A model generated the notes under the pieces. It was not told the origin of the DNA. It saw only the letters and a program-made list of their open reading frames with translations, and made no database searches. A DNA stretch of 64,000 nt, taken from Polychytrium aggregatum. Its lineage: Eukaryota; Chytridiomycota; Chytridiomycetes; Polychytriales. The stretch covers positions 248,001 through 312,000 of the forward strand of contig NW_026516233.1 of the NCBI RefSeq assembly GCF_025602895.1, given 5' to 3'. A program made the translations under genes and the position numbers. This document shows, in pieces, positions 1 through 26,283 of the stretch. Positions within the stretch are counted from its first letter, which is position 1. Each line of letters starts with the position of its first letter.

Positions 1-6
1 ATTCAT
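1..6 (-). CDS. Non-LTR retrotransposon ORF2 start (copy 1, runs off the window)
   Basis: Only the ATG and the next bases are inside the window. The start codon overlaps the ORF1 stop as ATGA, the same arrangement as in the complete copy (22523-22526). By homology the missing part should encode endonuclease and reverse transcriptase. Confidence 0.5.
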
Positions 7-1385
7 TGATGGGATTGGGGTTCTGTGCGTCCGCCCATCGCGGGGCGGCCTGTTCTTCCTTGGGCGATCTCACGGGCCCTGGAGGTGATTTGCTCGGCAA
101 TGTCGGGGTCGTCGAGCTTGCGCTGGTAGACTGTGGCCGTGAGAAGATCCCTGGACTCGGCACATATCTTGGCTGCGCGTTCAATGTAATTCTTGATTTG
201 CATCTTCTTGGTGTTTCTTTCCTCTTCGGTGAAGTTCTTGACATCCACGCCTGGGATCTCTGTGAACTTCCAGCTTTTGATGAGCTTGAGGAACTGTTCT
301 TTGTAACTGGCGTCCCTGAGGATGAATTCGCTTGTGTGTCGGTCGACGAAGCTAATGTTCAGGATTTGGTTCGTCGGGAAGCCTGCCAGCTTGAACGCCT
401 GTCTGACAGCCTTGTAGCTTCCTCTCGGGATTCCCCTGACGTAGACCCATGTGGCACTGTCGATCTTGGTCTTCATGGGGCCTTCTTCGATTGCGGCCTT
501 GGCTCGGATCATTCTGAAGGGGGTGGCGACCTTGGGAACGATCCATTTGCCGTCGTCTGGGTTTCGGCCTCTGAGCACCGCTCCAATGGCACTGATTCTC
601 TTCTCAGTATCGTTTTCCAGGGTGACCTTCTCCAGGGCCTCGAGCCGGTTGGCGGTGACGGTCCTGGCGCTGGCGTGTGTAACCTTGCGGGCACCACGCG
701 CGGCGGCGGCAGCAAAGGTGTCCGGTGGGGGAGCGCGTTTCTCCTCAGACGCGTGATTGGTGTAGCACACGAGTGCCTCTACCGCCTCAGTGGCGATGGC
801 CTTGAGCTTGTTGACTCCTTCAGGGCTGGAGAGGTCAAGCTGCTGGATCAGCTGCTTCATTTCTTGTGCTCTCTTGGCGCTTGTCAGTGGCTGGCGCCGC
901 GTCTTGTGGCTACGGCCATCACAGACTCGGGCCCCGACCGTGTTGGCGTCGCCGAGGGACACCCGTTGGTTGAAGGCTTGAATGTTGTCCGCAGTGCGGG
1001 TCATTAGTCCCCAAAAGGCGAGGACGGGGAAGCGCTGGCCGCACTCCTTAATCTTGGCCGGGTTGTCAGGGCTCATCATGTTGTTCTTGCACACGATGTC
1101 GTGGTCGTCTTGGTCGAGGTGCCATGAGGCCTGCTTCCTGTCTGCACAGCGTGAGCAGCGGACCCTGTGGCCTCGGAGTGCAAAGACCAAGCGGAATCGA
1201 CGGTAAGTGATCTCGTCGAAGGTGAGTGACATGTAGTCGGCCTCACAGGCTTCGCCCCTTTCTTCCTTGGCTGCAATTTCGATGGCCCAGTTCTTCTCGG
1301 CCTCGACATCGGGAGGGTTGGGGTACATTTCGGAGTCTCCGTAGAGCTCCTCGATCGTTGTTTCGATCGGCTTCTGGCCACTGGG
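3..1385 (-). CDS. Non-LTR retrotransposon ORF1, 3' part (copy 1, interrupted)
   Basis: This is the C-terminal part of an ORF1 protein, about 460 codons. It aligns along its length with the intact ORF1 at 20910-22526: both carry PNPPDV, DITYRRFR-like, C..C-type (RCSRC) and ESRDLLTATVYQRK-like blocks. The reading frame runs in from 1385, where a Ty3/gypsy element begins. The 5' part of the same ORF lies at 6858-7034. Removing the element and one copy of the 5-bp duplication gives one continuous frame of 1560 nt (519 aa). The stop TGA (complement of 3-5) overlaps the ATG of ORF2 (complement of 4-6), which runs off the left edge. The role is inferred: an RNA-binding nucleocapsid-like protein of the element. 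Confidence 0.85.
   Translation of the reverse strand, partial: PSGQKPIETTIEELYGDSEMYPNPPDVEAEKNWAIEIAAKEERGEACEADYMSLTFDEITYRRFRLVFALRGHRVRCSRCADRKQASWHLDQDDHDIVCKNNMMSPDNPAKIKECGQRFPVLAFWGLMTRTADNIQAFNQRVSLGDANTVGARVCDGRSHKTRRQPLTSAKRAQEMKQLIQQLDLSSPEGVNKLKAIATEAVEALVCYTNHASEEKRAPPPDTFAAAAARGARKVTHASARTVTANRLEALEKVTLENDTEKRISAIGAVLRGRNPDDGKWIVPKVATPFRMIRAKAAIEEGPMKTKIDSATWVYVRGIPRGSYKAVRQAFKLAGFPTNQILNISFVDRHTSEFILRDASYKEQFLKLIKSWKFTEIPGVDVKNFTEEERNTKKMQIKNYIERAAKICAESRDLLTATVYQRKLDDPDIAEQITSRAREIAQGRTGRPAMGGRTEPQSHQ
1381..1385. repeat. Target-site duplication CTGGG, left copy
   Basis: CTGGG is repeated at 6853-6857. Five base pairs is the usual duplication size for Ty3/gypsy integrases. 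Excising the element plus one copy rejoins ORF1 in frame. Confidence 0.9.
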
Positions 1386-1694
1386 TGTAGGAGATGGTAT
1401 CTCCGACGCTGTGCTGCGCGTACTGCGCGTACTGCGCGGCGCAGTGGGTCGTGACCTGTGCTGCGCTTTGCGTTTTCACGCACCGCAGGCAGGCCACCGC
1501 AGGGTATACCTGCGGGTTGCCCCCGTTCCCCCCGTTTGTCTGGAGTTCGGTTTTATCGTGAATAAACGTAAGTGCTCCCCGAGCTCACCCGTCCGCTAGA
1601 GTAGCCTAGCACCGCCCTGTTCTGCCCCGTCCTGTCTTGTCTTGTACCCCCTCCCTCCCCGTCTTGCCCCAACGTCCCAGTAGTGGACGTTACA
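1386..1694 (+). repeat. 5' LTR of the chromovirus
   Basis: The repeat begins TGTAGG and ends TTACA (TG...CA ends). It carries an AATAAA polyadenylation-type signal at 1561-1566 and a pyrimidine-rich 3' part. It also contains a short tandem of GCGCGTACT near its start. I see no difference from the right LTR at 6544-6852. Confidence 0.93.
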
Positions 1695-1712
1695 TGGTAG
1701 CATCGGAAATCC
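1695..1712 (+). promoter_or_regulatory. Primer-binding site
   Basis: It begins immediately after the LTR with TGGTAGC. This is complementary to a tRNA 3' end of the form GCTACCA, as in the initiator-tRNA sites of yeast Ty elements. Which tRNA is used cannot be settled without this organism's initiator tRNA. Confidence 0.6.
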
Positions 1713-1816
1713 TCGTCTTGTTTTCGTCCTGTTTGTCCTCTTTCTAGATCCTCAAGCTGGATCCCGCCTCTCTTGCCGACCGACTCTCCTCTCTGTCCCT
1801 GGAGCCTGCCCCTGCC

Positions 1817-2638
1817 ATGAGCAACCCCCGCCCACTTCCGGAAGCCTTCCTCAAGACCTTCCGTGCCCCAGTGTTTACTGGGAAGAGCCGCTCCTCCTCG
1901 GTGGAGGACTGGCTGCAGCAACTCGAGGACTACCTCGATGCTGCCCAAGTCGCCCCCACCCACCACATCGTCGCCGCCAAGCTCTGCTTAAAGGACCAGG
2001 CGTACCGTTGGTACCGCCGCCAAGGGTTCGACGAGCAGAGCGAAGGTGTGTTTGACGACTTCAAGGACCGCCTCCGTCGCCGCTTCGGCAGCCCCAATGC
2101 TGAACTCATTGCCCGTGACAAGCTATACTCTCTCGTGCAGCGTGGTTCTGTGACCCGCTACATCGAGGAGTTTGAAGACCTCTCCTCCCAGATTGAGGAG
2201 CTGGGCTCTGCTGATGCGATGTACCTCTTCCAGAAGGGCCTCAAGCCCAAGATCAGAGAGTACATCGCCAGCAACCCTGATGCCCGCAAGTCCCTGGACG
2301 TGATGATGGACGTTGCCGAGAACCTCGACAACGTCCAGTACCATGGCCGCCAGTTCTACCCGCAGCTGGCAGGCGGCCATCGGTCTCATCACGTCCCAGC
2401 CCGTCCGCCTCGCCCGGCCCCGCCCGCAAGACCCATGCCTGAGCCCATGGACGTTGACGTCAACGCCATGGAGGCTCGTGGCCCTCCCCGCTCCCGGTTC
2501 CAGCAAGCTGCCACTGTCTCCCCCAAGGACAGACAGAAGCAGGAGGACCTCCGCCATGGTTCCTGCTTCTTCTGTCACCGACCGGGACACCAGGCCAAGG
2601 AGTGCCCCATGAAGTCGGGAAACGGCCGACCCTACTAG
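1817..2638 (+). CDS. gag: Gag polyprotein of the chromovirus
   Basis: A 273-aa structural protein. The N-terminal half resembles the retrotransposon gag domain ([14 protein letters not shown], then a [14 protein letters not shown]-like block and a RRRFGSPN-like block). A Pro-rich linker follows at about residues 190-220. Near the C-terminus is a CCHC zinc knuckle C-x2-C-x4-H-x4-C (residues 250-263), which binds RNA in this family. The stop TAG at 2636-2638 lies inside a hairpin and 13 nt after a slippery heptamer, so most ribosomes would end here and a minority would continue into pol. Confidence 0.92.
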
Positions 2639-2660
2639 GTGGCTCTGGAGCCCTAGTAGG
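2617..2660 (+). promoter_or_regulatory. Programmed -1 ribosomal frameshift signal
   Basis: The heptamer G GGA AAC (2617-2623) is in the gag frame as X XXY YYZ. After a 7-nt spacer comes a perfect 9-bp stem, CCTACTAGG (2631-2639) with CCTAGTAGG (2652-2660). A small inner GCT/AGC stem (2642-2644/2649-2651) extends it. The gag stop is in the 5' arm. The pol frame is -1 relative to gag and open through this region. Confidence 0.85.
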
Positions 2661-5600
2661 AGACCAACGCCGTGGATTGCTCAATGCAGTCCACGCGTCT
2701 CCAGAGGAAGTTCACCTCGCCCCCTCCCCCGAAGGAGAAACAAACCAAGTGTTGTGCGTCGTGCGAGAGGTGCATGGTGGCGCAAGCCGCCTGCCTCTCC
2801 ACGAACGTGAAGAGAAAACCAAAATTGAAAACCAAAACAAAAAAGAAAATCAAGAACCCTTGAGGGACAGGACCGCCTGTGCCCTCACCCCTGTCAAGTC
2901 GTGTGTGTCGGATGCTTCCGACATGTGTCCGCAAGCCGTGGACGTCGTGTGCAATGGCGTGCTGACGCCGCAGGCCCCCGCAATGGCCGAACCCTATCCA
3001 AAATGTCCGAGTGGCCGTGATGAAGCCAACCAAGACCAAGTGTCGCCCGTTCCCCCAAGTCAAGTCATGGTGCAGGAGGCTGTGCAGGAGGACCATGAAG
3101 AGTCCCTGCTGTACCTCCCTGCCACCGTCCAAGGTCACACCGTCCGAATGATGGTGGACTCTGGAGCAAGCTGCAACTTTGTCAGCAGACGCTTGCTCCA
3201 GGAGCTCAACATACATGCAACCAAGAAGAAGTCGCCGATGAGTGTGGCGCTTGCAGACGATCGTGTGCAGCAGTGCACACACCAAGTGGTCCTGCGAGTG
3301 GCCCTCCATCCCAAGTACCATCCTGTCCTGTTGTTCCAAGTGATCGACACCAAGTTCGATGCCATCCTCGGCATGAGCTGGCTTGCTCGTGCCGAGCCGA
3401 CTCCAGTCGTCGACTGGAAAGGCCGCACTGTCCGTGTTGGCCCTGACATTGTCCTGCAGGGCATGGCCTCACCCAACATGCCACCTCTCCTCTCAGCCAT
3501 GCAATTCAAGAGGCTGATCAAGAAGGACACGTCGTTCCTCTGTGTCGTGCGTGAGGTCGACGACACCGACCAAGCCGGTCCCGGTCCCCCGCCTGTGGTG
3601 ACCAAGCTGCTCGACGAGTACAAGGACGTATTCCCCGACCAGTTGCCACAATGCCTGCCACCCCAACGCACCGTCGATCATCGCATCGACATCGAACCAG
3701 GCTCGTCGCCTCCGTCAAGACCGACGTACCAACTGTCGCTGACGGAGATGGACGAACTCAAGCGCCAGTTGGATGACCTCCTCGCCCATGGGTTCATCCG
3801 CCCGAGCCAGTCACCGTATGGTGCACCAGTGCTCTTTGTCAAGAAGAAAGAAGGTGATCTCAGGATGTGCGTCGACTATCGCGCACTAAACAAACAGACC
3901 ATCAAGAACACCTACCCGTTGCCCAGGATCGACGAGTTGATGGATCGTCTGAGTGGAGCAAAGGTCTTTAGCAAGATAGACCTCCGCTCAGGCTACCATC
4001 AGATCCGCATCCACGAGGATGATGTCCACAAGACCGCCTTCAGGACTCGCTACGGACTGTACGAGTTCCTAGTGCTGCCGTTCGGATTGACGAACGCACC
4101 TGCCACGTTCATGCAGCTGATGAACGATGTGTTCCGCCAAGAGCTCGACAACTCTGTCATCGTGTACCTGGATGATATCCTTGTGTACAGCAAGGATGAA
4201 GCGACCCATGAAGGTCATGTCGCCCGCGTGCTGGCCAAGCTACGCGAGCACAAGTTGTATGCCAAACTGTCCAAGTGTGAGTTCTTCAAGAATCAAGTCC
4301 CGTTCCTGGGACACGTTGTCTCAGGAAGAGGAATCGAAGTCGACCCCGCCAAGGTCAAGTCTGTGGTCGAGTGGCCGCCGCTCGCATGCGTCTCTGACGT
4401 GCAGTCGTTTCTCGGTCTCGTCAACTACTACCGCCGATTCATCCCCGATCTGGCGCGCACTGCCGGTCCACTCACAGACCTACTCCGCAAAGAGTGCCCC
4501 TTCGTGTGGGACCACCCACAACGCCAAGCGTTCGAGACCCTCAAGCACGCCTTGACGAACGCTCCTGTCCTCGCTGTGTTCGACCCGAACACGGATGTCT
4601 CCGTGCACACCGACGCCTCCGACTTTGCGGTGGGAGCTGTTTTGATGCAGGAGGGAAGGCCCGTTGCCTTCGAGTCGCGCAAACTGTCCCAACACGAGAT
4701 CAACTATCCCGTGCACGAGAAGGAGCAGCTTGCGATCATCTACGCGCTGCAGAAGTTCCGAGTGTACCTCCACGGTACCGCCAAGCCCTTCAAGATTGTG
4801 ACGGACCACCAGTCACTGCGTTACCTCGACACCAAGAAGAACCTGAGCCGACGCCAAGCGCGATGGATGGAGTTCCTCGCCGAGTACAACTACGAGGTTG
4901 TATACCAGAAAGGCAAACTCAATGTGGTGCCTGACGCACTGTCCCGACGCCCCGACTACCAATTGGCGTCACTGTACGAGTCGACTGTCAGTGTCGACAA
5001 CACGATGCTGGATGTTGTCCGAGACAACATCGCCAACGACAAACAGTTCGGAGAACTGTTCCGAAAGGTGTCTAAGCTCCCCAAGGACGACGAATCATCC
5101 GAGTACACAGTGCGTGATGGCCTGCTCCTCCTGAAGAAGGACAGCCGTGTCTGTGTGCCGGACATTCCGTCGTTGAAGACCAAGTTGCTCCAAGAGGTCC
5201 ACGACTCGCCCCTCGCTGGACACTTTGGAGTCGAGAAGACATACGACCGACTGGCCAAAGTCGCATACTGGCCTGGAATGAAGCGCACCGTCGAGAAGTA
5301 CATCGAGTCCTGCCATACCTGCAAGATGGTCAAGTCACGCACGACCCGAGAGCAAGGATTGCTGCAACCCCTGCCTGTTCCCGACCGCCCCTGGACCAGC
5401 ATGTCCATGGATCTCATCACGCATCTACCGACGACCAAGTTGGACCACGATGCAATCGCTGTCTTTGTCGACAGGTTCAGCAAGATGGCACACTTTGTGC
5501 CGTGCCAGACGACATGCTCCGCGCCTGACCTTGCACTGCTGTTCTTCAAGCATGTGTTCAAGCACCACGGCCTCCCAAAGTCCATCGTCAGTGATCGAGA

Positions 5601-6534
5601 CCCCCGATTCACCTCCTTGTTTTGGACAAGTCTGTTCGACCATCTCGGCACCAAGCTGAACATGTCAACCTCGCACCACCAACAAACGGATGGACAGTCC
5701 GAGCGGACGATCCGCACCCTCGAGCAATACCTGAGGACATACGCCTCGACCAGCCAAGACGACTGGGACATACAGCTGAGTCATGCAGAGTTTGCATACA
5801 ACACCGCCAAGTCGAGCACAACTGGCTTGAGCCCCTTTGAGGCGCTCTACGGATTCCAGCCTGATGTTCCCACCTCCTTGACACTGACCGAGTCCACGGC
5901 TGGATTGCCTCCCAAACCAAGTGCCTTTGTCAAAGATCATCAAGTCCGACACAAGATGATCGCCGACGCGCTCACGGATGCGCAACAAGTGATGGCGAAG
6001 TACTACGACCGCCGACACCAGGATGTCTCCTTTGAAGTTGGAGACCTTGTCTACCTGGACGCCGACAACATCAAGGTCCCCGAAGCCCAGTCAAAGAAGT
6101 TGTTGCCCAAGTACCGAGGACCGTTCAAGATAGCGGCCCGACCCAGTCCCCTCAACTACCTGTTGGACTTGCCACCTGGAAGCAAGCTCCATCCTGTCTT
6201 CCATGTGTCCAAGCTGCGTCGCCACACGACCCGCAGTCCAGCACAGTTCCCCGACGCCGACGAAGGTGTCCCGGACGACGCACCACTGGAAGACGACCTC
6301 GGACAATACTATACTCAAGAATATGAAGTCGAAAGGATCGTGAGGCACAAGAAAGTGGCTGATGGGTCACTTCGGTTTTATGTCAAGTGGGTTGGTTACC
6401 CACACTCGGGCAACACATGGCAAACACTGGAGGACTTGTCCCATGCACCCGAGGAGCTGAGTAAATACGGTAAACACCTCGAGGAGCCCCAAATAAAGAG
6501 CACACGCAGGGCTCCTCGCAGGAAGCCTTCTTAA
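2618..6534 (+). CDS. pol: Pol polyprotein: protease, RT, RNase H, integrase, chromodomain
   Basis: The open frame counted from 2602 is 1310 codons, but expression is probably as a Gag-Pol fusion by -1 frameshift at 2617-2623, because no ATG suits the start. Residues are numbered from 2602. A retropepsin has DSGA near 186. Reverse transcriptase has YLDD at 522-525. RNase H has TDASDF near 671. Integrase has an HHCC zinc finger from about 867 and a D937-D998-E1034 triad with the D-x35-E spacing of the family. The C-terminal chromodomain from about 1241 (YEVERIV ... YVKWVGY ... TWQ) would bind methylated histone tails and direct integration. All catalytic residues I can check are present. Confidence 0.93.
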
Positions 6535-6543
6535 GTGTGGGAG
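6535..6543 (+). promoter_or_regulatory. Polypurine tract
   Basis: A purine-rich stretch (GTGTGGGAG) lies between the pol stop and the 3' LTR, in the place where plus-strand priming occurs in LTR elements. It is short and interrupted by T. Confidence 0.6.
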
Positions 6544-6852
6544 TGTAGGAGATGGTATCTCCGACGCTGTGCTGCGCGTACTGCGCGTACTGCGCGGCGC
6601 AGTGGGTCGTGACCTGTGCTGCGCTTTGCGTTTTCACGCACCGCAGGCAGGCCACCGCAGGGTATACCTGCGGGTTGCCCCCGTTCCCCCCGTTTGTCTG
6701 GAGTTCGGTTTTATCGTGAATAAACGTAAGTGCTCCCCGAGCTCACCCGTCCGCTAGAGTAGCCTAGCACCGCCCTGTTCTGCCCCGTCCTGTCTTGTCT
6801 TGTACCCCCTCCCTCCCCGTCTTGCCCCAACGTCCCAGTAGTGGACGTTACA
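6544..6852 (+). repeat. 3' LTR of the chromovirus
   Basis: This is a 309-bp direct copy of 1386-1694, followed at once by the second CTGGG duplication. Confidence 0.93.
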
Positions 6853-6857
6853 CTGGG
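6853..6857. repeat. Target-site duplication CTGGG, right copy
   Basis: Pairs with 1381-1385. Confidence 0.9.
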
Positions 6858-7034
6858 GACTATGGGCTGGGAGACTTCTTGGCCATCGCCTCTGCGTTTC
6901 TTGGGCGTGGGCTGATCCGTGAGATCGATTGTTTCGGCCTGAGCTTGGGCCTCAGGGGGTGCTCTGGAGGGTCCAGGGACACTGTCATGGACGTCTACGG
7001 CCATTTCGGGGGCAGGCGAGTCGTCGGGGGGCAT
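6858..7034 (-). CDS. Non-LTR retrotransposon ORF1, 5' part (copy 1)
   Basis: This is the N-terminal 59 codons of the interrupted ORF1, starting at the ATG complementary to 7032-7034. The MPPDDSP start and the PTPKKRR basic patch parallel the N-terminus (MPPTQTA ... PTKKHRR) of the intact copy at 20910. The frame enters the right LTR at 6852 and is restored after excision. The 97 nt between this ATG and the tRNA-Ala gene at 7132 is the element's 5' leader. It matches the first 17 nt of the other copy's leader at about 12 positions. Confidence 0.85.
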
Positions 7035-7131
7035 GGTTGATACCGGGTTAGTTTTGTTGGTAGGCAATGGGAGGGCAGTAATTCAAAAGGTGCGTCCGCG
7101 GAACACTCGATAACGAGATCGGGGCAAACCT

Positions 7132-7204
7132 GGGGAATTAGCTCAGATGGTAGAGCGCTCGCTTAGCATGCGAGAGGCACGGGGATCGATACCCCGATTC
7201 TCCA
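7132..7204 (+). tRNA. tRNA-Ala(AGC)
   Basis: A 73-nt cloverleaf. The acceptor stem GGGGAAT pairs with ATTCTCC, the D arm is TAGCTCAGATGG, and the anticodon arm CTCGC-TTAGCAT-GCGAG gives AGC. The T arm contains GATCGATACC and the discriminator base is A. Its 5' end directly abuts the 5' end of the minus-strand non-LTR retrotransposon. Confidence 0.95.
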
Positions 7205-7212
7205 CTTTCACT

Positions 7213-19979: not shown

Positions 19980-20641
19980 GGTATATCAGATGCGATGCGC
20001 TGGGGGACGGGGGTTGATCCAGGACGATGATGGTCAGGGCGCTTGCGGAGGCGAGGGGCGCTTTTATGGATGTCGGCACGTGATCTGCAGGGGCGAGGCA
20101 ACGAGACGATTGGCCAACGAAGGCTCATACGATCGCACGCCAAGCGTCCTGCCCGTGGCTCCATCGGCGGCCGCAGCGACCGACAAACAAGGTGCGAGTG
20201 TGCAGGCACCACCTCTGGCGACCGGCAACGTCTCGCGAGAGGCAGCCAGGCGGCATGCGGGTCTGCATCGGGTGGCCTGTCGAGGGCGGCTATCTCTGGC
20301 CAATCGTTTTTTGCAGCGGGAGTTTCGGGTTGGTCCGTGTGCGGTGGGATTGCGGGGGTGGCACGGCGTGCATCCAGCAGGGCGAGGCGGCGATCTGCTT
20401 GGAGTGCCGGCTGAGTGCTGGCTGGCTGGAGTGCTGCTTGGACGAGGCCGATTGCTCCAATCGCCCCAATGGCCGCGCGGGTGATGGCGACGGCAAACGG
20501 CAATAACAGACGGATAGAAGCTGGATCAGGGCGCCGCACAAAGCTTGCCAAAGACGCAGGACCAACAAATGAGCAACAGCAACAGCAACGGCAGCGTGCA
20601 GCTCGATAATGGAAGCGAGGCGAGCAACTCCAAAAAGAAAG
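19980..20641. other. Intergenic, no gene seen
   Basis: GC-rich sequence upstream of the thiolase start. Several long frames exist on both strands, but none has recognisable domains and they overlap each other, as expected by chance in GC-rich DNA. It presumably holds the thiolase promoter. Confidence 0.5.
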
Positions 20642-20713
20642 AGGTCCCACCGAGATTTGAACTCGGGTTGCAGGAGTCAGAATCCTGAGTGCTAACCGCT
20701 ACACTATGGAACC
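20642..20713 (-). tRNA. tRNA-Gln(CTG)
   Basis: The minus strand begins GGTTCCATAGTGTAGCGGTT. The anticodon arm AGGAT-TCTGA-CTCCT centres on CTG. The T loop is TTCAAAT, the acceptor 3' arm is TGGGACC and the discriminator T is typical of Gln tRNAs. It lies 22 nt from tRNA-Ala on the same strand. Confidence 0.93.
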
Positions 20714-20735: not shown

Positions 20736-20807
20736 TGGAGACTGCGGGGATTGAACCCACGGCCTTCTGCATGCGAAGCAGACGCTCTACCACTGAGCTA
20801 AATCCCC
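20736..20807 (-). tRNA. tRNA-Ala(CGC), retrotransposon target
   Basis: The minus strand begins GGGGATTTAGCTCAGTGG. The anticodon arm TCTGC-TTCGCAT-GCAGA gives CGC, the T loop is TTCAATC and the discriminator is A. The first 16 nt of the gene (20792-20807) are duplicated at the far end of the adjacent retrotransposon (26268-26283), so the element was inserted exactly at this gene's 5' end. Confidence 0.95.
20792..20807. repeat. 16-bp target-site duplication, tRNA side
   Basis: ACTGAGCTAAATCCCC is found here as the 5' end of tRNA-Ala(CGC) and again at 26268-26283. Confidence 0.93.
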
Positions 20808-20909
20808 GAGCTTGACCTTGATCTCAACTTTTGGATCCACAGGCACAGGCTCTCCGTCGCTCTTTTATCAACAAACCGCTCAACACTCTCAACCAACGAC
20901 CCCCTCCAC

Positions 20910-22526
20910 ATGCCCCCGACCCAAACGGCCATCAACGAGATGGCCATAGACACCTCGGGCAGCCCTGCTGCCCAAGAACCAGGCCAACCGGACGAAAATC
21001 GCAGCCTAGGAAGCAACGGCCATCAGGTCAGTAGCGCCAATATCACCGAGGCCACCGAATCAGCACCCACCAAAAAGCACCGCAGGGATGGTGAGCCCAT
21101 CCAGCTGCACGTCGGTCGCAAGAAGACCGTCGAAGAAATTATCGAAGAGCTCTATGCAGATTCGGCAATCTTTCCCAACCCGCCCGACGTGGTTGAAGAA
21201 AAGAAGTGGGCCCTCTCGATCCTCGAGAAGGCCAAGAACAACACTCTCACCGACCAGGACTTCATCCCGGTCGATTTCAAAGACATCACCTACCGCCGCT
21301 TTAGGTTTGTCTTCGCTCTGAAGGCAGACCAAGTTCAATGCTCCCGTTGCAGAGGGAGCAAGCCCCCCGCCTGGCGTATCGACGACGCCCAGCACTCGGT
21401 CGTCTGCAAGAACATGCTGATGAGCCCGGACGCCGCCACCAAGGTGGAAGAATGCGGGAAGCATTTTTCCATCCTCGTATTCTGGGGCCTGATGACCCGC
21501 CATGACGAAGTCGGATGGAAGCTTTTCGAACAACGGGCCTCCCTCGCCGATGCCAGGGCTGTCGGGAAGCGCGTCTGCGCCACCGACATGCGCAAGAAGC
21601 AGAGTCCCCAACAGCAGCTTCAGCACATCCAGAGTGAGCTTCTCAAGAAAGCTCAGAAGATTAACGAAGAACTCGCCAAGCTGGACCTCAGCAAGCCCGA
21701 GGAAGCTGCTAGAATCAAGGCCCTGACCCAGAGCGCCACCGAGTGCATGCAGACGCTCGCCTCCGAGCTGGAGCATGCGTCCCGGGCCATCTCGGAACGC
21801 CCAGCTCCGACATCCTACGCAGCAGCCGCCCAGCGGGGTGCCAAGAAGCAGCCCGACAACAAGACAATCGACGCGCGCAAGCTGGCGGCCCTCGAAAAAG
21901 TCCACCAGGAGGCCGATGCCGGCAAGAAGAACGAGGCCATCGGCGCCATCCTCCGCGGCCGTGACCCCACCGACGGCAAGTGGCTGGTGCCCAAGACTGC
22001 CACGCCATTCAGGATGATCAGATCCTCGGTCCCTGTCGAGGAAGGACCCTTAAAGGATAGGATGGACAACGCCGCTTGGGTTTACGTAAAGGGTATCCCT
22101 CGGGGTAGCTACCGCACGATCAGACAAGCTTTCAAGGAGAAGGGCTTTGCCACCAACCAGATTCTCAATATCAGCTTTGTCAACAACAGCGTCTGTGAGT
22201 TTGTTCTCAGAGACAAGAGCTCGAGAGAAGAATTCTTGAAGCACATTACGGACATGAAATTCACTGAAGTCGCACACATGGACGTGTCGAAGATCACCGA
22301 GGCCGAGAAGGAGTCCAAGAAGCTCCAAATCAAGAGCTTCATTGAACGCGCTGCCAGGATATGTGCGGAATCCAATGACCTCCTCACGGCGACCTTGTAC
22401 CAACGGAAGATGAACGACCCAGCCGTCGCCGAGCAGATCACTGCTAAGGCGAAGGAACTGGCTCGCAACAAACCAGGCCGCCAAGAAAAAGGCGGACGCG
22501 AAGGAACCACTCCTCCCCGCAAATGA
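20910..22526 (+). CDS. Non-LTR retrotransposon ORF1 protein (copy 2)
   Basis: A 538-aa protein that aligns with the interrupted ORF1 of copy 1. The N-terminal ~60 residues are low-complexity and end in a basic patch (KKHRR). A conserved core follows with YRRFRFVFALK and CSRC...C-type cysteines that could form a zinc site (RCRGSKPPAW ... VVCKNMLMSP). A Lys/Glu-rich helical stretch spans about residues 230-300. The C-terminal third has YVKGIPRGSYRTIRQAFKEKG, which resembles an RRM-like nucleic-acid-binding fold. It probably coats the element RNA. The stop overlaps the next start as ATGA. Confidence 0.85.
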   Translation: MPPTQTAINEMAIDTSGSPAAQEPGQPDENRSLGSNGHQVSSANITEATESAPTKKHRRDGEPIQLHVGRKKTVEEIIEELYADSAIFPNPPDVVEEKKWALSILEKAKNNTLTDQDFIPVDFKDITYRRFRFVFALKADQVQCSRCRGSKPPAWRIDDAQHSVVCKNMLMSPDAATKVEECGKHFSILVFWGLMTRHDEVGWKLFEQRASLADARAVGKRVCATDMRKKQSPQQQLQHIQSELLKKAQKINEELAKLDLSKPEEAARIKALTQSATECMQTLASELEHASRAISERPAPTSYAAAAQRGAKKQPDNKTIDARKLAALEKVHQEADAGKKNEAIGAILRGRDPTDGKWLVPKTATPFRMIRSSVPVEEGPLKDRMDNAAWVYVKGIPRGSYRTIRQAFKEKGFATNQILNISFVNNSVCEFVLRDKSSREEFLKHITDMKFTEVAHMDVSKITEAEKESKKLQIKSFIERAARICAESNDLLTATLYQRKMNDPAVAEQITAKAKELARNKPGRQEKGGREGTTPPRK

Positions 22527-25500
22527 TGCAGCCCCAACCTACGCCCACTATTAGGTTCGCGACCCTGAATGTCTGCGGACTTGAAACCTCTATACACGAG
22601 GTTATCGAAATGGTAAAAGCAAAAGACCTCGACTTTATAACAGTCCAAGAAACGTGGCTCAAACCACAGCAATCCATCGGACCTTACAAGAACCTCATAG
22701 TTTTCGAAACCCGAGAGCCATATGTCTCTGTCGACGGCCTCGCAAGAGGCACCGGAGGAATCGCCCTCATTCGGAACCCGAAAACCACCAACCTCGAAGA
22801 CTTTAGCAACTTCCGCGTTGGACCTCATCACACGAGCATCTGGTTCAAGTTCCGAGGCATCGTCTTTGGATCTTTCTACCTCAAGCCTGCTCTGTCAGCC
22901 AATGCGGCAGCCCTGCAAAAGTTCCGAGAAGCCCTGTCGGCCATCAAGACCAACACCACAGAAATGAACAATCCTATCCCATCTGTGATCATGGGCGACT
23001 TCAACACCCGCATGGGCCAGACAAGCAGAGACACCCATGAAACCGCCAACCGTTTGCAACCACTGCGGACAGCTGTAGCGGGCGGCTTCCTGGAATTCGT
23101 GGATTCGACCAACCCCACGGGGCAACACTGGACCCACGTCGTCAACGGGAAGAAACCACAACACTCAGTACTGGACCTCTTCTTTGTCTCGACGGCACTG
23201 AGACACAACGCCAAGACGGTGACGGTCCACTCCAACGACACCTGTAACTCAGACCACCGCATGGTGTCGATGGAACTTGAATGGAACGCCGCCAGAGAGC
23301 CTGCCCGCCCACCAATCCTCGTGTGGCGAACCAACAAGCTCGAAGATCCCGAAACCCTCCAGCAATACACGGAAGCCTTTAGAGTCCACCACCCAGTAGT
23401 CGTAGAGCAGATCACACAGCTGGGAACCCGGCTACCACAAGAGGATGGACCCATGGCACGCGAAGACGCCGAAGCCCTCGTTGAATCTGGGTGGAATATC
23501 ATCAAGAACCACGTCACAGCGGTGGCACAAATCGTCATTGGGAAGCGAAAGAAGGATGGCCCGGCTCCCCGCAACGGCTTTTGGACACCGGAAATGGCTG
23601 ACATCAAGAAACGACGAAACACGGCTTATCGAATCGTGAACCAGTCGCCACAAGGCTCGAGAATCCAACTGCAGGCCATGGCCGACTACGAAAACATGAA
23701 CAACAAACTCAAGGACCTCATACGACGACAGAAACGCGCCTTCTACAACACCTGGGCCCAGTCTCTCTCCACCAAATCGGACTCTGAGCTCCTCAAGGAA
23801 ATCAGCAAGCGAGACAAGGTCAAAAGCGGCTTCTTCAACCGGTCGATTCTTCCGAACGACCAAGACAGCATGGACCAGTACCGGGCCCACTTTGGGAACA
23901 TCTCAAGTCGTCTCGGTGTTCAAGAAGCCAACGATACACCGCGTCCTCAGGAAATACTATTCAGTCGCCTCTTGGGCCGCGAAATCACAGCAGAAGAAGT
24001 AAAAACAGCCATCCGACGCATGGGGAAACACAAGGCCCCTGGGTCCGACGGGATCAGTGCCGAGCTCCTACACCCAGTAACCGACCAAGTCTCGGATTGG
24101 CTGCGTCAGCTCTTCAACTGGTGCATGTGGACCGGCATCGTCCCTCAAGAATGGAATGTCGCCATCAACCACCCCATCTGGAAGAAGAAGGGCGAAGAAG
24201 AGGACATCAAGAACTATCGCCCGATCTCTCTGCTACAAGTTGTCCGAAAGGTATTCGAAAGGATCTTACATAGCCGACTCCTCCAGGAGATGGGCCCCAT
24301 CGACATCTCCCAAGGAGGCTTCCGCAGCAACAGGGGAACCCTGGACCAGGTATTCGCACTCGATTCAATCGTCAAGTTCCTACAGAACGACGGCCACACC
24401 CCGTGGATCGCGTTCATGGACATCAAAGCCGCGTACGACTCAGTTGACCGGGATCGGCTCTGGCACAAACTCGAGCAACGAGACATCCCCCCGCATACCA
24501 TCCGCATCCTACGCGCGCTCTTCGACAACGTGACCACCGCTGTTCTCGTGAGCGGCACCAAATCCCGGCCGTACTGGCTGGAGATCGGGCTGCTGCAAGG
24601 GTCGGTTCTTTCACCCACCCTCTACAGCCTCTTCATGGATGACCTCGCACAGAACCTCCGAGCAGTCACATCACCCAGAATAGGGAACCTCATCATCAAC
24701 AATGTCATGTACGCGGACGACATGGCGTTGGTAGCAAAAAACCAAGAAGACCTCCAAAGACTTGTTGACATCTCCGAAGCACACGCAGACGAAAACAATT
24801 ACGCTTTCTCTCCGACCAAATGCGAAGTGCTTACCGCGGAAGCAAACCCGACCCCAATCACACTCAAGGGAACACCTCTTAGCTTCGTCACCAGCACCTA
24901 CAAGTACCTCGGGGTGCAGTTCGGCCCTGATGGCATCGACGCAGAGGCCCACGTCACTCAACTAAAGCACAAAGCCCAGTTCCGAACCAAAGAGTTCAAG
25001 GAACACGGCATCTTCAGCAAGTCAGTCTACCCTGGACTGATCGTCAAAATCTACAAGGCTTTCATCCGGCCCCGTCTGGAGTACGGCCTTGCCATCGTCA
25101 ACATGAAGGGCCCGATAATGAACACTCTACAGGGGTGCATGCTGGACACACTGCGATCGGCACTCAACATACGCCAGAACGCGTCTGGTCCGGCTGTCAT
25201 GACAGCCACAGGAATCTACACCATGGCGACCAGAAAACAGATACTGATGATCAAGTGCTTCGGACGGTGGTTCGACAGGAAAGACGACCCAGGATATCTT
25301 GGATCCCACGTGCTCAAGTACATCACCGAGTTGCCCCCAAGAAACCCAAACAAGAAGATACTCTCCAAGCTGACCGGAAGCGCCGCATGGAAGGAGCTCG
25401 AGAGACAGCACCGAGACTCCCCAGACAGAACAAGACTGGACCTGTTTGAATCTGGAACTGGCACCGGCACACCCATCAAGAAGGCGGTGATCGTTCACAG

Positions 25501-26023
25501 TTTTGAAAAAGAGCGGAAGCCCGAGAAAGTAATGTCGATCGCAGGCACCTACAAGTGGGAAGGCGACCCCATCCTGACAGCGCGGATGCCAGTAGCAACA
25601 GTTGCCCAAGCAAGGAGAATGCTCCTGTGGCGAGTCGGGTGTTTCCCACCTAAACCCGACAAGGAGTGCAAAAAGACCGGACCCAACGGCCCCAAGGTGT
25701 ATGTCAACAGAAAACATGCAGCAGAATGTGTCCGAGCCAAGGACCGACTCGAGAAATATGTTCACCCCACATCGATCCCCGAAGGCATCACCTACATCGA
25801 CCTTGCAATCGACGCACTCCCCAAGTTGGCTCGAGTGCCAACAAGACCACTCACCACCGATCCTGAAAAACAGAGAAGATGGCGTGCCAAGCGCAGCCGA
25901 GTACTGAACAACAGACCAGCGATCTGGCTGGATGTCGTGGCGGTGCTGGATGACATCGCAACCAAATGTCTGTCGTGGACAGCGGCCCCTCGGGCTGACC
26001 AATCGCAGCAAACAAGTACCTGA
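22523..26023 (+). CDS. Non-LTR retrotransposon ORF2: APE endonuclease and reverse transcriptase
   Basis: A 1166-aa replicase. Residues 1-250 form an APE-type endonuclease: TLNVCG near 13, VQETW near 38, MGDFNTR near 157, SDHRMVSME near 243. The reverse transcriptase has KAPGSDGISAELL near 505, AFMDIKAAYDSVDR, a LLQGSVLSP block, and the catalytic YADD at 730-733. The C-terminus has a possible zinc motif C-x8-C-x15-H-x3-C (1040-1069). I see no RNase H domain. The start ATG overlaps the ORF1 stop (22523-22526), suggesting termination-reinitiation. Endonuclease specificity for the tRNA-Ala 5' end is inferred from the insertion site. Confidence 0.92.
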   Translation: MMQPQPTPTIRFATLNVCGLETSIHEVIEMVKAKDLDFITVQETWLKPQQSIGPYKNLIVFETREPYVSVDGLARGTGGIALIRNPKTTNLEDFSNFRVGPHHTSIWFKFRGIVFGSFYLKPALSANAAALQKFREALSAIKTNTTEMNNPIPSVIMGDFNTRMGQTSRDTHETANRLQPLRTAVAGGFLEFVDSTNPTGQHWTHVVNGKKPQHSVLDLFFVSTALRHNAKTVTVHSNDTCNSDHRMVSMELEWNAAREPARPPILVWRTNKLEDPETLQQYTEAFRVHHPVVVEQITQLGTRLPQEDGPMAREDAEALVESGWNIIKNHVTAVAQIVIGKRKKDGPAPRNGFWTPEMADIKKRRNTAYRIVNQSPQGSRIQLQAMADYENMNNKLKDLIRRQKRAFYNTWAQSLSTKSDSELLKEISKRDKVKSGFFNRSILPNDQDSMDQYRAHFGNISSRLGVQEANDTPRPQEILFSRLLGREITAEEVKTAIRRMGKHKAPGSDGISAELLHPVTDQVSDWLRQLFNWCMWTGIVPQEWNVAINHPIWKKKGEEEDIKNYRPISLLQVVRKVFERILHSRLLQEMGPIDISQGGFRSNRGTLDQVFALDSIVKFLQNDGHTPWIAFMDIKAAYDSVDRDRLWHKLEQRDIPPHTIRILRALFDNVTTAVLVSGTKSRPYWLEIGLLQGSVLSPTLYSLFMDDLAQNLRAVTSPRIGNLIINNVMYADDMALVAKNQEDLQRLVDISEAHADENNYAFSPTKCEVLTAEANPTPITLKGTPLSFVTSTYKYLGVQFGPDGIDAEAHVTQLKHKAQFRTKEFKEHGIFSKSVYPGLIVKIYKAFIRPRLEYGLAIVNMKGPIMNTLQGCMLDTLRSALNIRQNASGPAVMTATGIYTMATRKQILMIKCFGRWFDRKDDPGYLGSHVLKYITELPPRNPNKKILSKLTGSAAWKELERQHRDSPDRTRLDLFESGTGTGTPIKKAVIVHSFEKERKPEKVMSIAGTYKWEGDPILTARMPVATVAQARRMLLWRVGCFPPKPDKECKKTGPNGPKVYVNRKHAAECVRAKDRLEKYVHPTSIPEGITYIDLAIDALPKLARVPTRPLTTDPEKQRRWRAKRSRVLNNRPAIWLDVVAVLDDIATKCLSWTAAPRADQSQQTST

Positions 26024-26267
26024 GAAAGAAACCCTCCCAGACGCATGAGCAGACACTTGGACAGGGAAGCCGGAGCTGGAGTCCCAAACTGTCACTGAAT
26101 GGATGAGTTCGGCAAAACTTGACATCGCCGTCCCTCCGCAAACAGGCCCCATGGGATAGAGAGCTGTACACCGACGACCCAAATGTCCCGGTTGGCAAAG
26201 CCAACACCCAGTGCCAGAGCCCAAAAGGGACGCTAAGGCAAAGTCTTTAATAAAGACCCACCTATTG

Positions 26268-26283
26268 ACTGAGCTAAATCCCC
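26268..26283. repeat. 16-bp target-site duplication, distal copy
   Basis: A repeat of the tRNA-Ala(CGC) 5' end (20792-20807). It marks the exact 3' end of the element. Confidence 0.93.

Follow-up and report, generated by a model that had tools for sequence, protein, structure and literature searches.

How can a retrotransposon come to lie flush against the first nucleotide of a tRNA gene, with a copy of the beginning of that gene at its far end, and leave the gene itself whole? The question is raised by a stretch of 64,000 nucleotides (nt) of the chytrid Polychytrium aggregatum (contig NW_026516233.1, positions 248,001 to 312,000; in the following, the window), in which a retrotransposon without long terminal repeats (non-LTR), here called family A, adjoins a tRNA-Ala(CGC) gene. 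The answer proposed, which is considered highly probable, is that family A is a recently active, target-specific long interspersed element (LINE) with an endonuclease of the apurinic/apyrimidinic (APE) type, landing in box A (AGTGG, nt 14-18) of certain tRNA genes. The locus is composed as follows, where ORF stands for open reading frame:

20736..20807, minus strand: tRNA-Ala(CGC), whole, with nt 1 at 20807 (ARAGORN; Rfam tRNA, 68.8 bits)
20792..20807: copy 1 of the 16-bp duplication, running from tRNA nt 16 to nt 1 (exact match)
20808..26267, plus strand: non-LTR retrotransposon of family A, full length, 5,460 bp
20910..22526, plus strand: ORF1, 538 amino acids, without a Pfam match
22523..26023, plus strand: ORF2, 1166 amino acids, its start overlapping the ORF1 stop (ATGA)
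22559..23266, plus strand: APE-type endonuclease domain at the N-terminus of ORF2 (PF03372 and PF14529)
24182..24922, plus strand: reverse transcriptase domain of ORF2 (PF00078, E 8.4e-38)
26190..26267, plus strand: end of the 3' untranslated region, with three predicted hairpins
26268..26283: copy 2 of the 16-bp duplication (exact match)
20641-20713, minus strand: tRNA-Gln(CTG), neighbour of tRNA-Ala(CGC) (ARAGORN)

The duplicated 16-mer, ACTGAGCTAAATCCCC, is the reverse complement of tRNA-Ala(CGC) nt 1-16 and occurs twice in the window, at 20792-20807 and 26268-26283, and the element begins at 20808, with a 0-bp gap to nt 1 of the tRNA. The perfect duplication bounding the element, its identity with the tRNA 5' end on the other strand and the integrity of the abutting tRNA, all put forward in a preliminary description of the locus, were reproduced exactly, and the empty alleles described below agree with them. 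The element is a full-length, two-ORF LINE of the APE type, because the APE and reverse transcriptase domains share one ORF and LTRs are absent, no terminal repeats being visible at its ends besides the 16-bp duplication. Pfam reported in ORF2 neither RNase H nor any nuclease domain other than the APE-type one. Copies truncated at the 5' end also exist, as exemplified by ~90-bp copies on contig C367 and by a truncated, inverted relative at C364/C162.

A genome-wide survey of junctions carries the case. The 5' search returned 22 matches, 18 with the element 5' end and four with the tRNA only; the 3' search returned 43, of which 17 were long (covering the 3' end from the first query base, with at least 98% identity) and four were shorter at the same threshold. 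All 18 5' ends, that of the window copy included, adjoin nt 1 of an antisense tRNA, the element starting with GAGCTTG in 17 of them (the GA is missing in C411). Likewise, every long 3' end (17/17) runs into a 16-mer of a tRNA 5' end, one base being absent from C37 at a contig end, and the four shorter matches (C346, C49 and, twice, C367) all precede the tRNA-Glu 16-mer. When copies with identical flanks are pooled as one site (C18/C37/C40/C114/C266; C39 twice with C257; C62 with C375:18k; alleles, duplications or assembly duplicates in each case), ~12 distinct sites result, namely five at tRNA-Gly(GCC), four at tRNA-Glu(CTC), two at tRNA-Ala(CGC) and one at tRNA-His; both junctions are seen at 11 of them, and the 5' junction only at the His site. 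Counting repeated sites, the family A 5' end occupies 10 of 39 tRNA-Gly matches and 4 of 32 tRNA-Glu matches. The preliminary description had anticipated an excess of tRNA-Ala 5' ends with duplications: the association with nt 1 held without exception, but its restriction to tRNA-Ala did not, since Gly, Glu and His genes are also targeted, and the specificity is for several AGTGG-bearing tRNA types rather than for tRNA-Ala as such. Copies in unrelated flanks, which would have been the majority under untargeted insertion, are not so in family A.

Chance is excluded because one and the same position is occupied at ~12 of ~12 distinct sites, in genes forming a tiny fraction of a 64.7-Mb genome. 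That insertion is unspecific and that the surviving copies are simply those which spared genes would agree with the finding of diverged relatives and of a distant family, family E, away from tRNA genes; selection, however, cannot yield one exact nucleotide at all these sites among nearly identical and partly polymorphic copies, and such survivorship is regarded as very improbable. Indeed, family A is recently active, as judged from 12 complete, stop-free ORF2 copies (including that of the window), from the 99.58-99.76% identity to the window copy of the 14 other near-full-length copies, and from the existence of presence/absence pairs.

Three such pairs of empty and filled alleles were found, C363/C68 and C165/C375 at tRNA-Gly and C49/C346 at tRNA-Glu, with flanks identical across 100 bases on the tRNA side and 60 bases on the other. 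In 3/3 exactly 16 bp are gained and nothing is lost, the filled allele containing tRNA nt 1-16 twice, with four additional bases (ACTG) before the second occurrence in C346. As filled alleles carry the extra nt 1-16 relative to empty ones, it is the insertion that makes the duplication, and the tRNA sequence is preserved. At sequence level these comparisons, together with the tandem copies, demonstrate an exact target, its duplication, the preservation of the tRNA sequence and the reuse of the site. The suggestion of a cut inside the tRNA coding sequence with regeneration of the gene is thereby borne out, by the junctions as well as by the pairs. The empty sites also bear on the idea that the tRNA is carried as the head of the element, or is an assembly artefact. 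Every 5' end does have a tRNA, as this idea would require, but the tRNAs are of four different kinds with differing flanks beyond them, and the empty alleles retain the tRNA, by which the idea is refuted and its probability reduced to next to nothing.

The flanks likewise allow one to judge whether a few insertions were spread by recombination, i.e. by segmental duplication or gene conversion among tRNA loci. The tRNA-side flank is common to three of the four Glu sites and to both Ala(CGC) sites, and the same site is repeated on several contigs, as such spreading would predict; the opposite flanks, however, differ in both cases, four tRNA types are targeted, additional bases at the 3' junction vary among sites, and insertion was clean in the three pairs, which lie at different tRNA genes. 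This reading, already weakened by the pairs, is therefore held to be improbable.

The 3' junctions hint at how the element may be joined to its target. In 12 of the 17 long 3' ends ..CCTATTG stands immediately ahead of the duplication, while the other five have additional bases, ACTG in four and ACTATTG in one. These extra bases would fit a primer ending in AGT that pairs with an ACU near the RNA end and then slips. Three hairpins are predicted in the last 78 nt of family A (z -2.22) and likewise in the equivalent stretch of a second family, family C (z -2.33); for the 90 nt preceding the hairpins no structure was predicted (z +1.65). The hairpin core is conserved in an alignment of 11 sequences of diverged families, as would be expected if the reverse transcriptase reads the 3' hairpins. 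The following course of events can be proposed: the ORF2 endonuclease would nick the tRNA coding strand after T16 (..AGT^GG); the AGT-3'OH would pair with ACU at the 3' end of the RNA and prime reverse transcription; the opposite strand would be cut at the nt-1 boundary; and repair would duplicate nt 1-16.

As to what is recognized, the tRNAs of the window and of the fetched loci were compared. All four target types of family A (Gly, Glu, Ala(CGC) and His) read AGTGG at nt 14-18, which is absent from the non-target tRNAs Gln (AGCGG), Ile and Val(AAC) (both AGTTG), Met (AGTCG), Lys and Ser. Since this motif is shared at nt 14-18, one of the two cuts falls within the tRNA itself and the other at nt 1. 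Nucleotides 14-18 lie within box A (in the D-loop), part of the internal promoter of RNA polymerase III (Pol III), and box A is bound by TFIIIC. We think that ORF2 finds the position in box A chiefly from the DNA sequence, with Pol III factors perhaps assisting.

Several observations weigh against this reading. AGTGG is also carried by the tRNAs for Asp, Pro(AGG), Ala(TGC) and Val(TAC), at which no family A 5' end was found, so that either the motif does not suffice or the sample is too small. Of the 10 distinct groups into which the diverged relatives were sorted by their 3' flanks, five have no tRNA-derived duplication (C364/C162; C386/C87; C378/C366/C219/C238; C361/C375:474k; C228/C29/C20/C224:36k), and the 5' end of the relative at C364/C162 is inverted, truncated and in unrelated DNA. 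Sequence alone is, moreover, silent on the order of the nicks, the strand and the enzyme. Finally, because TFIIIC also binds box A, the element could be tethered, TFIIIC or TFIIIB on the tRNA gene recruiting an endonuclease of little sequence preference. There is precedent: the dictyostelid element TRE5-A depends on the B box being intact, and in vitro TFIIIB is contacted by the ORF1 protein of the element (PMC5006619), and TRE5 shares the antisense orientation (PMC5911963). The family A position is, however, exact to the nucleotide, as opposed to the windows of TRE5 and of the dictyostelid NLTR elements, 2-6 or more than 10 bp wide, and each family is restricted to few tRNA types, adjacent tRNA-Gln, Asp, Ile and Val genes being left unused. 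Tethering is thus seen as possible, though rather unlikely, and recognition of the DNA itself as the preferred explanation.

A second family in the window follows a similar pattern. Family C (ORF2 61% and ORF1 53% identical to those of family A) starts with AGGTTTGCCCC and is represented by:

7132..7205, plus strand: tRNA-Ala(AGC), the target of family C (ARAGORN)
1..7131, minus strand: family C copy with its 5' end at 7131, its ORF1 running off the left edge of the window

The preliminary description of family A is thus confirmed as correct and understates the case, there being more target tRNAs and this second family at 7131/7132. A further family C copy lies head-to-tail, left of the window on the same contig (C235). 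When tRNA-Ala(AGC) joined to the 5' end of family C served as the query, 31 matches were obtained. The tRNA is contained in 26, of which 17 continue into the full 5' end, five into a diverged version (89-91% identity across tRNA plus flank) and four into neither; the other five are tandem junctions, in which no more than the final 14 nt of the matching tRNA are kept, and four of these five read element 3' end, A-run, TGAGCTAATTCCCC or TGAGCTGATTCCCC, next 5' end. The duplication of family C is 14 nt long and accompanied by tandem re-insertion. At least eight of the 17 copies have one additional C between tRNA nt 1 and AGGTTTGC, so that the position of the 5' joint varies by no more than one base. 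As one cut would fall after nt 14 in family C and after nt 16 in family A, with nt 1 as the other boundary in both, the second cut would be tied to the tRNA start and not to a fixed distance. The window copy itself is interrupted inside ORF1, at about 1386-6850, by an LTR-type insertion with two identical 300-nt direct repeats (1385-1684 and 6543-6842), bordered by the short repeat CCCAGT; neither of the two ORFs of the insertion that were tested matches a Pfam family.

Further elements may be present at the same genes. At C39/C257 the sequence following the duplication, GAGCTTGACCTTGATATCA, was considered as native flank captured as 5' untranslated region, and this was rejected: its score against the 5' end of family A is 62, compared with at most 36 in 200 shuffles. 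In the similar tRNA-Gly flanks L119 (C409) and L121 (C279), ORF1-like matches, 36-39% identical, start 475 bp from the tRNA. In the light of this score and these matches, the C39/C257 stretch is assigned to another related element, of which it would form the 5' end, and a further family at tRNA-Gly (L119/L121) is probable. For the tRNA-Ala(AGC) flanks C360 and C157 the scores against the 5' end of family C are 55 and 52 (at most 33 and 35 after shuffling), with no nearby ORF1 among the matches listed; these flanks may be relics or captured host flank.

Short copies were also encountered. At C367:102880-103640 (L086), two ~90-bp, 5'-truncated 3' ends lie in tandem, the first directly at tRNA-Glu nt 1 and the second adjoining the 16-nt duplication; joining at nt 1 thus extends to copies as small as these. 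In the short 3' piece at C346/C49 the 3' end is followed by the tRNA-Glu duplication, but the 5' side is separated from the tRNA by ~160-190 bp and does not adjoin nt 1. On C13, C331, C356 and C367 (L074, L082-L087), short, apparently internally deleted derivatives lie between tRNA-Glu and a tRNA-Glu-like duplication, as if they were non-autonomous partners using a family A type 3' end.

Among the 10 groups of diverged relatives, four have a tRNA-Glu duplication, which is exact in two, has a single mismatch in another and is degenerate in the fourth. In the remaining, ambiguous group (C46:199170-199400, L092) the 3' end is followed by ACTAGACCATTGTGAT, which resembles another tRNA 5' end, and a tRNA-Val(TAC) starts ~60 bp beyond. 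Family E, with an ORF2 31% identical, ends in poly(A) in the three copies inspected (C2, C79 and C78; 3 of 7 rows), the flanks of which all differ; ARAGORN found no tRNA in the stretches fetched there, which stop short of the 5' ends in C2 and C79. Taken with the groups lacking a duplication and with C364/C162, this means that tRNA specificity belongs to certain lineages of the genome. In a reverse transcriptase tree of 84 rows, built without named L1, Tx1, R1, Tad, TRE or NLTR references, ORF2 groups with eight metagenomic LINE proteins, P0001-P0008 (27-32% identical; support 100/100), in a nine-row clade separate from the organism-named rows, placement inside the clade being weak (85/27). 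The sole match of ORF1 in a sequence search (7998 candidates sharing most words scored) was P0092, the family C protein of the same genome. The first ~120 residues of P0009, annotated as a Polychytrium aggregatum 'male sterility protein', resemble a LINE ORF2 C-terminus, and P0009 is probably a fused gene model.

A broader proposal, towards which we lean only slightly, is that of a chytrid LINE lineage whose endonucleases would read box A directly, each family having its own set of tRNAs (those with AGTGG in family A; in family C tRNA-Ala(AGC), with AGATGG). With the second cut tied to tRNA nt 1, each insertion would rebuild its own target, and the tRNA gene would be a self-renewing landing pad collecting head-to-tail arrays without loss of the tRNA. 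The mode, which would add to those of non-LTR elements the cutting of an internal tRNA promoter with full restoration of the gene sequence, is found in two related families that differ in their sets of tRNAs and in the length of the duplication (16 and 14 nt). As the duplication keeps the gene whole, the same spot is reusable for insertion. Whether an APE-type endonuclease reads a Pol III promoter becomes a directly testable question, for which the same genome supplies empty alleles, intact copies and, for comparison, the more distant family E, which has poly(A) ends and for which three copies were inspected, none with a visible tRNA. A target that is conserved, multicopy and survives insertion is also attractive for safe targeted gene addition.

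How family A relates to known systems can be summarized as follows. The dictyostelid TRE5, NLTR-A and NLTR-B are, like family A, non-LTR elements with ORF1 and an APE-reverse transcriptase protein that insert upstream of tRNA genes, TRE5 also in antisense orientation. They insert, however, outside the mature tRNA, at 40-54 bp (TRE5), 2-6 bp (NLTR-A, of D. purpureum) and 39-64 bp (NLTR-B) upstream of it (PMC5006619; PMC5911963), unlike the 0-bp gap and the duplication inside the tRNA of family A, and NLTR-A and NLTR-B have the RNase H that Pfam did not find here; in a figure legend, insertion windows are given as between 2 and about 1000 bp on the upstream side or between 7 and about 450 bp on the downstream side (PMC5911963). 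The statement that known tRNA-associated LINEs insert at a distance holds, accordingly, in part only, in view of NLTR-A and of the elements with a restriction-like endonuclease that are reported to be specific for tRNA genes, NeSL-1_TV (tRNA-Pro), LIN15_SM (tRNA-Arg) and LIN25_SM (tRNA-Glu) (PMC4640811). The latter, compared by description, differ from family A in their endonuclease and in that one tRNA type, instead of several, is reported for each family. The R1 and Tx1 clades, again by description, are site-specific and of the APE type, as is family A (PMC4640811), but the R1 target is 28S rDNA (PMC3706591). Dada DNA transposons share with family A fixed sites within tRNA genes (PMC3706591), but use a DDE transposase, without reverse transcription; Ty3 and DGLT-A share a precision of a few bp upstream of tRNA genes (PMC5006619), but are LTR elements with an integrase and insert outside the tRNA sequence. 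In the open-access PMC literature no report of family A was found, nor any paper with both 'Polychytrium' and 'retrotransposon'. Given the known tRNA-associated LINEs and Dada, family A is not categorically new; what appears to be new is an APE-type LINE that cuts in box A, at a site it would recognize mainly from the DNA, and restores several types of tRNA.

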